From: Bacillota bacterium
GTDB lineage: Bacteria; Bacillota; Clostridia; Clostridiales; Clostridiaceae
NCBI GenBank assembly: GCA_021781655.1
Contig: JAJXWJ010000025.1
Location: forward strand, 1-45,306
Length of the DNA stretch: 45,306 nucleotides
Direction of reading: 5' to 3'
This document shows, piece after piece, positions 34,369 to 38,768 of this stretch. Positions within the stretch are counted from its first letter, which is position 1, and the number at the start of each line of letters is the position of its first letter. A model generated the notes under the pieces. That model searched no databases and had not been told where the DNA came from. It saw only the letters and a list, made by a program, of their open reading frames with translations. Made by a program: the position numbers and the translations under genes.

Positions 34369-35847
34369 CTAAAGTATTATACAAATTAATCCACCATTAC
34401 CTTCATTAATTATTTTCTCTAAAGTTTTTTGAATTTTTATCTGGACATCTTCCGGCATTTTAAATAGCTTCTTCTGAAGCCCTTCCTTTACAACAACATC
34501 TAAAGACTTACCAAATATATTGCTCTCCCACATCTTAGATGGGTCGCTTTCAAATTGTTCAAGCAATGATTTTACTAATTCTTCACTTTCTTTTTCTGTT
34601 CCCATTATTGGAGAAATTTCTGTTTCTATATCAGCTCTTATAAAATGGAAAGAAGGGGCACTGGCCTTTAATCTAACTTCATACCTAGAACCATTTTTAA
34701 CGATTTGAGGTTCTTCTAGTTTCATTTCAGTGAGCTGTGGTGCAACTAAGCCATAACCTGTATTTTTCACTTCATTTAATGCATCTGCTACTTTATCATA
34801 CTCAACCTTTGCCTTATAGTAATCTTTTATAGTATATAAAAGTTCACTTTCACCTACAATATCTGTGCCACAATATTCGCTTAATACTTTATAAAACATC
34901 CCCTTTTCTGGTTTTAAATATACTCTAGCTGTACCGTTTCCCATATTCATCTCTTTAATTTCACCAAAATCTAGAAAATCTTCTTCCTTGCAGCTATTCA
35001 TGCATTTATTTAAATCTCTAACCTTATCGATATTTTTAGACATTTTCTTAACTAAACCAATATAATTTTGCTTTAGCCAATGAGTAATTTCAAGTTTTTC
35101 TATCCATTCGGGCATATCAATATTTATTTCTTTTATTGGAAATTCTTTTAGTATTCTACTAAATACATTACCTATATGTTCTTCTGTCATATGCAGTACA
35201 TCCATTATTTGAACAGGAACATCATATTTTTGTTCAAGTTCTTCTTTTAATACTATAGTTTCTGGATCAGATGCTTTAGTTGTATTTAACAATATGATAA
35301 ATGGTTTATTTATAACCTTAAGTTCAGCTATAACCCTTTCTTCTGCTTCCAAATATTCTTCTCTATCTATATCTGTAATGGAGCCATCCGTTGTAATAAC
35401 AAGTCCAATCGTTGAATGCTCATTAATAACTTTTTTAGTTCCAATTTCAGCAGCTTCTTCAAAAGGAATTTCATGGTCATACCAAGGAGTACTAACCATT
35501 TTATCCTTTTCTCCTTCTTTATAGCCTAAAGCTCCTTTAACTATATAACCAACACAATCAACAAGCCTAACCTTAAATTTAATACCCTCAGCTAATGTGA
35601 TTTCAACAGCTTCATTAGGTATAAATTTAGGTTCTGTAGTGTGAATTGTTTTTCCAGATGCACTTTGTGGAAGTTCATCTTTAGCCCTTTCCTTTTTGTA
35701 CGAATTTTCTATGTTTGGCAAAACCATAAGTTCCATAAATCTTTTAATAAAGGTCGATTTACCCGTTCTTACCGGTCCAACAATACCAACATATATATCT
35801 CCCTCTGTTCTTTCTGCGATGCTTTTATATATATCATAATTTTCCAA
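34369..35847 (-). CDS. spoIVA: Stage IV sporulation protein A (spore coat ATPase)
   Basis: ATPase that polymerises on the forespore surface as the base layer of the coat, recruited there by SpoVM. Its 492 residues equal the Bacillus length. The N-terminal GPVRTGKSTFIKRFMEL (P-loop about residues 24-31) and the following TRAFAC-GTPase-like fold (DCVGYIVKGALGYKEG; LLNTTKASDPE) are intact. A middle domain and the short hydrophobic C-terminal tail (GNGGLICIIL) needed for localisation follow. The start is TTG behind GGGGTGAG, with a 36-bp inverted repeat directly upstream. The neighbour upstream is a PAS-HisKA protein, which is unusual. Expression is probably by sigma-E, but no sigma-E promoter could be fixed with confidence. 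Confidence 0.97.
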   Translation of the reverse strand: MENYDIYKSIAERTEGDIYVGIVGPVRTGKSTFIKRFMELMVLPNIENSYKKERAKDELPQSASGKTIHTTEPKFIPNEAVEITLAEGIKFKVRLVDCVGYIVKGALGYKEGEKDKMVSTPWYDHEIPFEEAAEIGTKKVINEHSTIGLVITTDGSITDIDREEYLEAEERVIAELKVINKPFIILLNTTKASDPETIVLKEELEQKYDVPVQIMDVLHMTEEHIGNVFSRILKEFPIKEINIDMPEWIEKLEITHWLKQNYIGLVKKMSKNIDKVRDLNKCMNSCKEEDFLDFGEIKEMNMGNGTARVYLKPEKGMFYKVLSEYCGTDIVGESELLYTIKDYYKAKVEYDKVADALNEVKNTGYGLVAPQLTEMKLEEPQIVKNGSRYEVRLKASAPSFHFIRADIETEISPIMGTEKESEELVKSLLEQFESDPSKMWESNIFGKSLDVVVKEGLQKKLFKMPEDVQIKIQKTLEKIINEGNGGLICIIL

Positions 35848-35857
35848 ATTCTCACCC

Positions 35858-35893
35858 CACTACTTAAATATTAGTATATATATATAAGTAGTG
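35858..35893. promoter_or_regulatory. 36-bp inverted repeat next to the spoIVA ribosome site
   Basis: CACTACTTA (35858-35866) and TAAGTAGTG (35885-35893) are perfect complements, with four more pairs after one mismatch inside. On the spoIVA mRNA the second arm ends immediately before GGGTGAG. It could be a dyad operator in the promoter region, or a hairpin that affects translation or 3' processing of the upstream gene. There is no T run, so it is not a good terminator. Confidence 0.5.
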
Positions 35894-35914
35894 ATGGCAT
35901 TTTATTACTTAAAA

Positions 35915-36571
35915 CTAAAAATCAATTAATTCTTTAATTATTTCTAAAAGAGAATATGCACATTCTTTTGCTAAATTTAAATTTTCTCTTTGTTCTTCTA
36001 TTAATTCTGTAAAGAGCGTAAGCTCTATCATTCCTATAATTCCATTTAATGGTGTGCGAATTTCATGATTTAAGTTCTCTAAAAATTGTATCTTATGATT
36101 GCTACTTTTAAAACACATTGAGGACATATTCTTATTTTCTTCTAAGTTATACATATCTATTATTGTAACTAATGCATATCTTTTATTATTAAGTGCCATT
36201 TGATTAATATGTAACTTTATATATATTTTGTACTCATCTTTATTTTTCAAAGTAGTTATAATTATTTCTTCTTGAAAAGAACTTTCACCTTGAACAATTG
36301 CTTTTTTTAATAGCAAATTCATATTGCAGCTTCTGCAGCTTTCCGTTAAGCCACATTTACATGTATTATTAACTATTGATTTACAACATATGCTGTTCCC
36401 AAAAAAAATTCCTACAAATTCATTACTACTTTTTTTCAACCATTTTAATGCTGTCTTGTTAGCCTCAATAATTTTATAATCTTCATCAATTAATAACATT
36501 CCCATAGGTGAATTTAAAAATATACTTTCAAATCTATTTTTATCATTAATATCATTCCCGCTACTTGTCAT
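35915..36571 (-). CDS. PAS–HisKA signalling protein lacking the kinase ATPase domain
   Basis: 218 residues. A PAS domain (about 12-140) contains FLNSPMGMLLIDEDYKIIEA and an inserted Cys cluster (Cys62, 63, 71, 73, 79 and 82, pattern CKCG-x4-C-x2-C). It leads into a histidine kinase dimerisation domain with the H-box LNHEIRTPLNGIIGMIEL, His169. The protein then stops at IIKELIDF, where full kinases continue with SKIEAGK and the HATPase domain. Only about 65 bases remain before spoIVA, so no N, G1 or G2 box remnant exists. It cannot phosphorylate itself. It may accept phosphate from another kinase, act as a phosphatase, or bind its partner regulator. The start has AAGGGGTGA. It follows the response regulator by 18 bases. 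Confidence 0.85.
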   Translation of the reverse strand: MTSSGNDINDKNRFESIFLNSPMGMLLIDEDYKIIEANKTALKWLKKSSNEFVGIFFGNSICCKSIVNNTCKCGLTESCRSCNMNLLLKKAIVQGESSFQEEIIITTLKNKDEYKIYIKLHINQMALNNKRYALVTIIDMYNLEENKNMSSMCFKSSNHKIQFLENLNHEIRTPLNGIIGMIELTLFTELIEEQRENLNLAKECAYSLLEIIKELIDF

Positions 36572-36589
36572 TTGTTTTCACCCCTTAAA

Positions 36590-37582
36590 TTAGACCCTAT
36601 CCCCATTATTTAAAGAAATTTTTTTCAATATTTTTTTTGCATAACTATTATTTATATTTTCTATAACAATTTTCTCAAGTAAAATAATAGCCTCATCTAT
36701 TCTTTCGTTTTTTATGAAAAAAGTAATTAATTTTTTTAAAATTCTATGATAAATCTTCTTCAAAATCAATTGCTGATTATAGCTCCAAATATAACCTTCC
36801 TTTTCAAACAAATCACCTTTATATAATTGAATTAGTTCAATTGCTTTTCTATAATTACTTTCATCAATATTTGTTAAACTATTACTTAATTGTTCAAATT
36901 TTTCTCTATCGAAATTTACATTTTCCATTTTCATTTTGTAATATCCGCAAGAATACGAAATTTTTATTTCGCTGCCAATTTTAGATAAGGACTTTCTAAT
37001 TCTACTCATTGCCGTTTGCATATTAGCAGATGCCCTTCTATATTCAAAATCAGACCATAAGGTATCAATTATTTCATCTTTATGAATACTTTTCCCAATA
37101 TTGTGAAGTAAAAATGCAAAAAGCTCTGCATTTTTAGAACCTTGCCACTTTACTTGTTTGTTTCCTTTATGAACATCCATTTTCCCAAATACTGAAATCT
37201 TCAAAATGCTACTTTGACATCCTTTTTTGCATTTATATCTATTTATTGACTTTTCAAGTCTTTCATAACTTACTGGCTTTAAAATATAATCCATAGCATT
37301 AATTTCAAAAGCAGCTACAGCATAACTAGAATCTGATGAAATCAAAATAACTCCCACATCTGAATGCAGTTCCTTGATTTTTTCAGCTAATTTCAATCCA
37401 TTAATTTTAGGCATTTCGATGTCGATAAAAGCAATATCAGGTTTGATTTTTTTTATATCACTTAATAAATGTTCTGGTTCAGTATATTTATAAACAGTAT
37501 TTTCAGTGAAATTAGTTTCTATCATACTGCTTAACATTTCAACGTTAACTGCTTCATCATCAATTACAATAATTGTATCCAT
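36590..37582 (-). CDS. Response regulator with SARP-like winged helix and BTAD output
   Basis: 330 residues. The N-terminal receiver domain (about 1-120) has the acidic pair Asp8-Asp9, phospho-acceptor Asp54 (FIDIEMP), Ser82/83 and Lys102 (LKPVS), so it looks fully active. A Cys-containing linker (CKKGCQSS) leads to an OmpR/SARP-type winged helix (about 125-215, VFGKMDVHKGNKQVKW to YSCGYYKM) and a bacterial transcriptional activator helical-repeat domain (about 220-325). This is the 'SAPR family' regulator layout. The start ATG has CGGAGG upstream. It is first in a unit with the PAS-HisKA gene and, after that, spoIVA. It probably regulates nearby or sporulation-linked genes, which is an inference. 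Confidence 0.88.
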   Translation of the reverse strand: MDTIIVIDDEAVNVEMLSSMIETNFTENTVYKYTEPEHLLSDIKKIKPDIAFIDIEMPKINGLKLAEKIKELHSDVGVILISSDSSYAVAAFEINAMDYILKPVSYERLEKSINRYKCKKGCQSSILKISVFGKMDVHKGNKQVKWQGSKNAELFAFLLHNIGKSIHKDEIIDTLWSDFEYRRASANMQTAMSRIRKSLSKIGSEIKISYSCGYYKMKMENVNFDREKFEQLSNSLTNIDESNYRKAIELIQLYKGDLFEKEGYIWSYNQQLILKKIYHRILKKLITFFIKNERIDEAIILLEKIVIENINNSYAKKILKKISLNNGDRV

Positions 37583-37625: not shown

Positions 37626-37732
37626 TAATATTTTTATGAAAAGGTTTATATTTAAAATTTTACCAATACGTATACTTGCTTTAATTATAGCAATTTATTC
37701 TTACAAAATTCTTACACGAATTATTAGATATA

Positions 37733-37766
37733 AAAAAAGATGATTTATACAAAAACCATCTTTTTT
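37733..37766 (-). terminator. Rho-independent terminator after gpsA
   Basis: Minus-strand AAAAAAGATG / CATCTTTTTT with a 14-base loop and a T run, starting a few bases past the gpsA stop. It isolates the signalling genes downstream from the der–gpsA unit. Confidence 0.8.
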
Positions 37767-37772
37767 ATACTT

Positions 37773-38768
37773 TTAGTGCATTTCGTTTTTCTTTTCCCTT
37801 ACCATAAGATCCATTACTACTGCTTTTATGTCTTTATCAGTAAATAACAATTTATAGAGCGTATCTGTAATAGGCATATATACATCTAACTTTTCTTTTA
37901 ATTCATAAAATGCTTCACAAGCCTTTACTCCTTCAACTACCATGCCTACTTTATCACAAGCTTCCTTTGCAGAAAGCCCCTGCCCAATAAGTATACCAGC
38001 ACGCCTATTTCTACTGTGCATACTTGTACAGGTTACTATAAGATCTCCCATTCCAGTCAAACCATAGAAGGTTTCTTGATTTCCACCAAGTTTGGTTCCT
38101 ATTCTTATTATTTCGCTCATTCCTCTAGTCATTAATGCTGCTTTAGAGTTATCTCCATATCCTAATCCATCACATATTCCGGCAGCTAAGGCAATAATAT
38201 TTTTTACAGCACCGCCAATTTCGATTCCTATCAAATCGTCATTAGTGTAAACTCTAAAGTTTTTAGTAGTAAATAAGTCTTGAACAATATATGCAAATTC
38301 CATTTGTTTAGATGAAACAACAACTGTTGTAGGCATATTTATTGACACTTCTTCTGCATGAGTTGGTCCAGATAAAATTACTGCTGGATTGTTTGGAAGC
38401 ACTTCATTTATAATTTCAGATAACCTTAAATTAGTCCCTTCTTCAATACCTTTTGCAGTTGATATAATAATTTGATCATCCTTTACCCAACTTTTCAATT
38501 TCATACAAACTTCACGAATAGCAAAAGAAGGAACTGAAAGAACAATATACTTTGCCCCATTTATTGCTTCACCCATGTCATATACTGCTGAAATATTTTG
38601 TGGTAAAGATAAGTCCTTAAAAAACTTACTGTTTCTTTTATTTATATTTATATCATCGATTATATCTTTATTTCTATCCCATACATTTACATCGTAACTT
38701 TTACCTGCTAACAAAATAGCAAGAGCAGTTCCAAAACTACCGCCGCCAATAAAAGTAACCTTAGCCAT
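37773..38768 (-). CDS. gpsA: Glycerol-3-phosphate dehydrogenase [NAD(P)+]
   Basis: Reduces dihydroxyacetone phosphate to glycerol 3-phosphate, the backbone for phospholipids and the acceptor for acyl groups supplied through PlsX. It has 331 residues. The Rossmann motif is [14 protein letters not shown]. Other family motifs are [33 protein letters not shown] and [14 protein letters not shown] with the following SRNRRAG-type segment. It follows der by one base. In Bacillus, gpsA sits between der and spoIVA as well. Here two extra genes intervene before spoIVA. Confidence 0.98.

Follow-up and report, generated by a model that had tools for sequence, protein, structure and literature searches.

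To our knowledge, phosphatase action by a DHp domain that lacks its ATPase domain is known from cut-down constructs. Spo0B is a DHp-type phosphotransferase of kinase ancestry that passes phosphate from Spo0F to Spo0A, uses no ATP, has no recognisable HisKA and carries a C-terminal domain. The locus analysed here bears on whether nature employs a bare DHp domain as a signal-gated phosphatase, and involves no more than a single DNA box and two proteins that are small and probably soluble. It comprises two adjacent genes, encoding a 330-amino-acid (aa) response regulator and a 218-aa PAS-HisKA protein without an ATPase domain (hereafter the PAS-DHp protein), which lie in the minus-strand order gpsA, regulator, PAS-DHp protein, spoIVA in a sporulating Bacillota bacterium of the family Clostridiaceae (assembly GCA_021781655.1, contig JAJXWJ010000025.1). 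The window, that is, the whole stretch of 45,306 nucleotides (nt) analysed, is one entire contig (C15) of a 3.7-Mb draft genome with 168 contigs and 2.48% contamination. We tentatively favour a reading in which the regulator is autoregulated and served by a distant kinase, with the PAS-DHp protein as a phosphatase or a modulator of phosphotransfer.

Several described systems frame this reading. EnvZ and NtrB still show phosphatase activity in vitro and in vivo when reduced to their DHp domains, though less than with the CA domain, and in the HisKA proteins tested a threonine or asparagine four residues after the histidine is needed only for the phosphatase reaction and the acidic residue after the histidine only for the kinase reaction (PMC3510030). 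ChrS, a kinase without a working CA domain, alters signalling through HrrS, for which its DHp domain is required (PMC9491836), the full-length PtpA and PtpB of C. difficile act mainly as phosphatases (PMC11210211), and NreB holds a cluster with four cysteines in its PAS domain (PMC4601167). Spo0B homologues have been recognised by an obg/L21/L27 neighbourhood, the lack of a Pfam domain and alignability to the Spo0B N-terminus (PMC6136694). SARP activators bind at direct repeats whose period is 11 nt; the -10 element is 8 nt from the 3' repeat, and the 5' repeat lies over the -35 element (PMC10936776, PMC4393881). Among open papers, searched by title and abstract opening, none on clostridial SARP-type two-component regulators was found, which is no proof of absence.

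Domain architecture and rarity of the PAS-DHp protein

Pfam assigns the PAS-DHp protein a PAS domain (PAS_8/PAS_9) followed by HisKA at residues 160-218 (model positions 2-60 of 66; 1.9e-14), with nothing beyond and no match to HATPase_c; its alignment to full-length hybrid kinases stops at F218, and 67 nt separate its gene from spoIVA. H169, E170 and T173 are all retained, T173 occupying the threonine/asparagine position four after the histidine. An earlier sequence-only reading had described a short protein with neither an ATPase domain nor room for one, with H169 as phospho-acceptor, beside a receiver with all its key residues; all of this holds, H169 by alignment. Given the missing ATPase domain, it was also right that the protein would have to take phosphate from elsewhere, remove it or bind without chemistry. 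Single-sequence AlphaFold2 models of poor quality (mean pLDDT 36.3 and 46.1) were left out of fold searches.

Conservation is distributed unevenly along the protein. The PAS cysteines C63, C73, C79 and C82 are shared with the PAS hybrid kinases of L002, L009 and L010 (loci carry L numbers and contigs C numbers), and among the 30 kinase loci searched, 8 have open reading frames (ORFs) with a comparable motif. As a side observation, the motif C-x(7-13)-CG-x(3-6)-C-x2-C is found, probably in the PAS part, in the family hybrid kinases L002, L009, L010, L083, L084, L085, L090 and L092. The 13-residue linker before the DHp domain, near-universally of the AKEEAEAANKAKS type in other kinases, keeps a single consensus residue, with a mean identity of 0.09 against 0.52-0.78 among 18 non-redundant family kinases, and the DHp domain outside the H-box (0.48) lies within the range of the same 18 (0.38-0.57). 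In columns conserved in 70% of the kinases, 28 of 34 residues are kept in the DHp domain vs 1 of 8 in the linker (Fisher P 0.0004; 6e-5 at the 60% level and 0.002 at the 80% level). G+C by codon position is 0.40/0.21/0.12 in the DHp part, 0.26/0.29/0.19 in the PAS part, a weak signal, and 0.15/0.25/0.35 over 20 linker codons, which is abnormal. Because the DHp columns, H169/E170/T173 and the PAS cysteines are kept while the linker is lost, this pattern argues against uniform decay of the gene. The linker could, alternatively, have been swapped by a domain fusion that preceded loss of the ATPase domain, and the pattern therefore gives no date for that loss.

Within its genome, the PAS-DHp protein is the sole HisKA protein without an ATPase domain. 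There are 33 HisKA domains, and HATPase_c lies in the same frame for 31 of the 32 others. The remaining frame (C157) runs off its contig end and is a full kinase also, because an ATPase frame at the end of C115 opens with the final residues of C157; one kinase gene is apparently split across these overlapping contig ends (L120 3-977 on C157, L103 4186-4575 on C115). The best in-genome relative, L002, shares the PAS and DHp domains (34% identity over residues 16-217), and no full-length homologue found exceeds 35% identity to the protein. A family search at 1e-16 gave 26 matches in 21 of 200 genomes, and the 25 besides the query all lie in frames of at least 498 aa, with at most 15 candidates scored per genome, so that weaker matches may be missing. 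The PAS-DHp protein is real and rare, yet a singleton.

The regulator and its promoter box

The regulator combines a receiver (Response_reg, residues 4-113), complete with the acidic pocket D8 and D9, D54, S82 and K102, and an OmpR-type winged helix (Trans_reg_C, 149-214). It had been called SARP-like, which is borne out by homology and by the promoter box described below, but Pfam finds no BTAD domain. BTAD is matched in 5 of 6 aligned regulators, and the alignment to the nearest relative extends to residue 302; the C-terminal part is shortened, ending about 45 aa before the long relatives, which end in BTAD, and relatives of 295-308 aa also occur. Family relatives are at most 38% identical, and a search of 291 class genomes at 1e-50 gave no match in any but its own. 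A family regulator match with two in-frame TAA stops was seen at L024 (contig C5 of another genome).

Upstream of the regulator gene stand an exact 9-nt repeat, 11 nt from start to start, and, after 7 nt, TATAAT, which is the geometry of SARP promoters. When the intergenic region was dinucleotide-shuffled, 0.6% of the shuffles contained an equal repeat at spacing 11 (P 0.006). With thresholds fixed after this box was seen and before relatives were scanned (one mismatch; 6-8 nt to a -10 element with at most one mismatch), 19 boxes were found in 16 of 29 loci of related regulators, against a mean of 1.4 boxes in 1.35 loci, and a maximum of 4, in 60 shuffles of whole loci, coding parts included; L015 and L020 share one box, and the loci are thus not fully independent. 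Fourteen of the 19 are intergenic (13 loci) and five lie inside ORFs. Of the 14 intergenic boxes, 13 stand downstream of the regulator on the same strand, with the next ORF 39-323 nt further on; the window's box, unlike these, precedes the regulator itself. Wider post hoc patterns add L013, L014, L029, L033, L034, L035 and L039, and 6 of the 29 loci yielded no box under any pattern.

The box core tracks the regulator clade. TGTAAGA is common to the window and L012, the closest relative of the regulator; TGTCAGA occurs at L014, L019, L022 and L025; TGTTTAGA at L013 and L027, and also at L015 and L020 outside the tree; TTTGTGA at L021, L023 and L028; and TTGTGAG at L030, outside the tree. We regard the box as a putative site of the regulator itself. 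Across the genome, the strict box with up to 3 mismatches occurs in one place, exactly, before its own operon. The sequence TGTAAGANNNNTGTAAGA with up to one mismatch occurs in 3 places vs 2 in a control, the operon's own site being the sole exact one; the site on C54 lies between genes with no -10 element visible at the right distance, and that on C101 inside an ORF. No further regulon targets are claimed after genome searches with the strict box and TGTAAGANNNNTGTAAGA; a generic sigma-70 scan was uninformative (24 found vs 16.3 expected).

Candidate kinases in the genome

A kinase like that on contig C50 lies within the 1.5-kb flanks at 15 of 29 loci of related regulators; at L079 (L015) none is seen by eye in 14 kb. 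At all three loci scanned, the kinases beside the regulator carry PF06580 and are not PAS-HisKA kinases of the PAS-DHp sort: those of L076 and L077 consist of HisKA, HATPase, receiver, His_kinase (PF06580) and HATPase, L076 having a 7TM part as well, and that of L078 of 7TM, His_kinase and HATPase. In view of these findings the short protein, earlier assigned as the regulator's partner, is no more than a candidate for that role. The three genes after the regulators at these loci encode proteins of more than 1000 aa with cell-wall-binding or Ig-like domains, and the window's regulator has neither tandem-kinase nor large-protein neighbours of that kind. More generally, clostridial regulators with receiver, winged helix and BTAD (L012-L040, L076-L079) have boxes of SARP geometry ahead of the following gene; their neighbours often include tandem kinases and a gene for a large protein of secreted type.

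The genome's one frame with HisKA and two HATPase_c matches is a 1057-aa kinase on C50 (L111 2383-5556), which, of the three kinases compared, is most similar to that of L012 (635 bits). No regulator gene was found in the 13.5 kb read around it; the gene downstream resembles proA by eye. In trees of 15 kinase-regulator pairs, regulators and kinases fall into largely the same two groups. C50 is most likely the best candidate kinase for the window's regulator, because it falls outside the second kinase group (support 98/96) and that regulator is placed with the first. The genome's second family regulator, on C78 (L072 618-1718, 1954-3096), adjoins an HD-GYP-like gene by eye and has no kinase beside it; a box-like repeat lies upstream of the HD-GYP-like gene. 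Other PF06580-like kinases lie on C48, C59, C90 and C156, three beside AraC-type-looking regulators and C59 ending with its contig. Nine regions were fetched in this survey, and HATPase_c frames without HisKA were seen in part, leaving another kinase possible.

A split kinase, with a free-standing ATPase partner for the PAS-DHp protein, was rejected, as the 57 HATPase_c matches of the genome include no convincing partner. C115 (129 aa) lies at the end of its contig, and its first residues are the last ones of the C157 kinase; C88 (141 aa), whose neighbours by eye are a sigma factor and an anti-sigma antagonist, reads as SpoIIAB-type; C138 (146 aa) is truncated by its contig end; and C151 is a 64-aa frame.

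Genomic setting and the spoIVA promoter

The regulator and PAS-DHp genes are 18 nt apart, and the PAS-DHp start codon ATG is preceded by GGGGTG, a plausible ribosome site. Features of the locus are collected in Table 1. spoIVA loci were read with 1.5-kb flanks in the best-scoring 30 of 89 matched, one being the window's own and 29 from other genomes. gpsA lies upstream of spoIVA in 21 of these 29, the three nearest included (SpoIVA 79-81% identical), and not in the other eight, two of which have der there. The regulator and PAS-DHp pair is absent beside spoIVA in all 29; at L049 a receiver is matched weakly (28.7 bits), and on the opposite side of spoIVA. The pair thus looks inserted between gpsA and spoIVA, as had been proposed. 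A chimeric contig at this site is unlikely, because both flanks carry genes in the usual order. A search for insertion scars as flanking repeats gave weak repeats and nothing stronger, and tblastn against 72,556 plasmid records at 1e-12 gave no match. The inverted repeat after gpsA may close the gpsA transcript, and it is absent from the list of the terminator scan.

In Bacillus, spoIVA has a SigE promoter. Here, a promoter-like block begins 6 bases after the PAS-DHp stop codon; its two parts align gap-free to most other loci, with variants such as GTCATAAA, GGTATATT and TATATATT. Right after it (about 35865-35873), relatives have TGTTAATA or similar, and three bases are missing in the window. 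Because this conserved block is kept, spoIVA is probably independent of the pair, a bystander served by a promoter-like block of its own, and scanning for boxes revealed none for the regulator ahead of spoIVA. The sporulation link once suggested for the pair by its position is therefore not upheld, and none was found otherwise.

Table 1. Coordinates and basis of the features discussed (positions in the window).
Feature	Position	Strand	Basis
PAS-HisKA (DHp) protein, 218 aa, without ATPase domain	35915..36571	(-)	ORF; Pfam; alignment to full-length hybrid kinases
Response regulator, 330 aa	36590..37582	(-)	ORF; Pfam; alignment
H169-E170-x-x-T173 phospho-acceptor and phosphatase motif (predicted roles)	36053..36067	(-)	alignment; roles per PMC3510030
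Pre-DHp signalling-helix linker, residues 149-161, consensus gone	36089..36127	(-)	comparison with kinases
PAS cysteine motif, residues 62-82 (C63-x9-C73-G-x4-C79-x2-C82)	36326..36388	(-)	alignment
SARP-geometry box, TGTAAGAAT twice, 11-nt period	37697..37716	(-)	repeat search, shuffles, family scan
Extended -10 TGCTATAAT; TATAAT at 37684-37689	37684..37692	(-)	7 nt past second repeat
spoIVA promoter-like block, GTAATAAA ... TATATACT	35873..35908	(-)	alignment, 18 of 30 spoIVA loci
Inverted repeat and T-run after gpsA, possible terminator between gpsA and the pair	37733..37766	(-)	14 nt, 93% complementary
spoIVA (flank)	34369..35847	(-)	
gpsA (flank)	37773..38768	(-)	

Proposed circuit and alternative explanations

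In the reading we tentatively favour, a kinase encoded elsewhere, most likely the orphan C50, would phosphorylate the regulator at D54; the phosphorylated regulator dimer would bind the repeat box, as SARP activators do, and raise transcription of its own two-gene operon. The co-expressed PAS-DHp protein, a dimer without ATPase, would remove the regulator's phosphate via T173 or draw it off via H169, under the control of its cysteine-rich PAS domain, perhaps an iron-sulphur or redox sensor, and would form the negative arm of a feedback loop. By analogy with EnvZ and NtrB, what would fit best is a phosphatase or phosphate sink that is gated by the PAS domain and expressed together with the regulator it restrains; that the cysteine-PAS holds a cluster like that of NreB is a guess. 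E170, being kept, would also allow a full kinase to phosphorylate the protein in trans. The most far-reaching form of the proposal is a natural sensor phosphatase: a cysteine-PAS would directly control a DHp domain that works without any ATP step and switches off an autoregulated regulator of SARP type, whose kinase is encoded elsewhere. This form is rather unlikely.

Several observations weigh against the favoured reading. Searches of 206 family genomes and 225 order genomes (the family included; 1e-28; about 13-15 candidates scored per genome) gave no kinase-less homologue or orthologue, and neither did a scan of contigs of named genomes, whose single match was partial (28%) and came from a Porticoccaceae metagenome-assembled genome; the homologues of equal length and gene order that the earlier reading had envisaged were not found, and the short form is at most putatively conserved. 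The DHp domain is of the type of PAS hybrid kinases near chemotaxis-type genes, and recognition of the regulator is only assumed, because DHp domains of this type did not turn up beside related regulators. In the H-box, 16 of 20 residues are kept, its identity of 0.76 being the lowest of the set (others 0.81-0.92), and the serine preceding H169 and the asparagine at 213 are replaced. The G+C of the PAS-DHp gene is the lowest of the 40 window ORFs (0.25, with 0.26 tied second lowest), which fits relaxed constraint, as does the long branch of the regulator (1.77). Placement of the window's regulator with the first group and of the C78 regulator with the second has weak support (77/79) on long branches. 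The repeat on its own is weak evidence for a box, because an equal repeat arises in 17% of shuffles at any spacing of 5-39 nt, and in 2.3% at spacings 9-12 (P 0.02); a backward control of the strict-box search likewise gave one match within 3 mismatches. In ChrS, finally, phosphatase function seemed to be lost with the CA domain (PMC9491836).

Much of this would also be expected if the PAS-DHp protein were a non-functional remnant of a PAS-hybrid kinase that lost its ATPase and receiver domains when an insertion or deletion reached the spoIVA block, with a regulator that may still work. The stop codon 6 nt before that block, the eroded linker, the weak codon-position signal of the PAS part and the abnormal linker codons agree with decay, and because no orthologue was found, the DHp kind was not seen with the regulator family and the G+C is lowest, we give this explanation, though somewhat unlikely, nearly the same weight as the favoured one. 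What a remnant leaves unaccounted for is a reading frame open across 218 codons behind a plausible ribosome site, intact PAS cysteines, and a DHp domain whose conserved columns and key residues have survived much more fully than the linker (P 0.0004). The kept residues also bear on a decoy that binds signal or regulator without chemistry and keeps the regulator inactive; sensor-domain-only decoys of sporulation kinases do exist (pXO1-118 type), but a pure decoy needs none of H169, E170 and T173, and this explanation is very unlikely.

RetS, which is among the solved relatives, works by pairing with GacS. A comparable mixed dimer of the PAS-DHp protein with a full kinase such as its closest paralogue, the C39 hybrid kinase, in which H169 is phosphorylated by the ATPase domain of that kinase, or the activity of that kinase altered, and phosphate is passed to the regulator, is distinctly improbable. 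It would explain the retention of E170, needed for the kinase but not the phosphatase reaction (PMC3510030), and the presence of the same PAS and DHp domains in L002, and it has a precedent in ChrS, where HrrS signalling changes and the DHp domain is needed. A mixed dimer with any kinase is nevertheless a prediction, the linker that would have to match the coiled coil of the partner is the part that has diverged, and the truncated form of ChrS showed no mixed dimers in two-hybrid assays, with the histidine dispensable (PMC9491836). Collapse of the assembly, deleting the ATPase-coding part, is imaginable in a draft of this fragmentation and contamination and is highly unlikely, given both flanks in the usual gene order, a spoIVA promoter block in place and a site about 9 kb from the nearer contig end. 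A Spo0B-like sporulation phosphotransferase between the receiver and Spo0A, to which adjacency to spoIVA and a histidine protein without an ATPase domain had pointed, is barely credible: neighbourhood and domain content differ from those by which Spo0B homologues are recognised (PMC6136694), spoIVA has its own promoter block, and the pair is missing beside spoIVA in all 29 other genomes read.

If the sensor-phosphatase form of the proposal is true, the locus would belong to a circuit of three proteins, and the kinase and phosphatase activities that one enzyme normally combines would be divided between two genes, each with its own signal. The observation that clostridial regulators with receiver, winged helix and BTAD appear to use SARP-type boxes before the adjoining gene, with a core that tracks the regulator clade, may matter more widely, since their targets could become predictable.

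Comparison with known two-component systems

The PAS-HisKA-HATPase-REC hybrid kinases of L002, L009 and L010, from chemotaxis-type clusters, share with the PAS-DHp protein the PAS cysteines and the H-box core (33-35% identity over about 205 aa), whereas they are proteins of 641-779 aa with ATPase and receiver domains and the PAS-DHp protein stops after the DHp domain, with a different linker. The isolated DHp domains of EnvZ and NtrB are likewise HisKA domains without an ATPase domain, but they are laboratory constructs rather than natural genes and carry no PAS domain of this kind. ChrS of Corynebacterium glutamicum is alike in being a sensor kinase without a working CA domain; it is, however, a product of laboratory evolution, and its regulator is cross-phosphorylated by the paralogue HrrS (PMC9491836). 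The comparison with Spo0B, made in the sequence-only reading, stands as a functional likeness and not by recognition features: the neighbours are the regulator, gpsA and spoIVA rather than obg, L21 and L27, and the PAS-DHp protein matches HisKA and PAS where Spo0B has no Pfam domain (PMC6136694).

With the SARP activators AfsR and OtcR, the regulator has in common an OmpR-type winged helix and direct repeats (9 nt for OtcR) with an 11-nt period near the -10 element (PMC10936776, PMC4393881), and it differs in its receiver in front, the missing Pfam match to BTAD and its clostridial origin. Closest are the regulators of the L012, L013 and L019 type, with receiver, winged helix, BTAD and tandem kinases, which at no more than 38% identity show the same box geometry, and L012 the same core; their boxes follow the regulator and precede the next gene, whereas in the window the box precedes the regulator and no C50-like kinase adjoins it.

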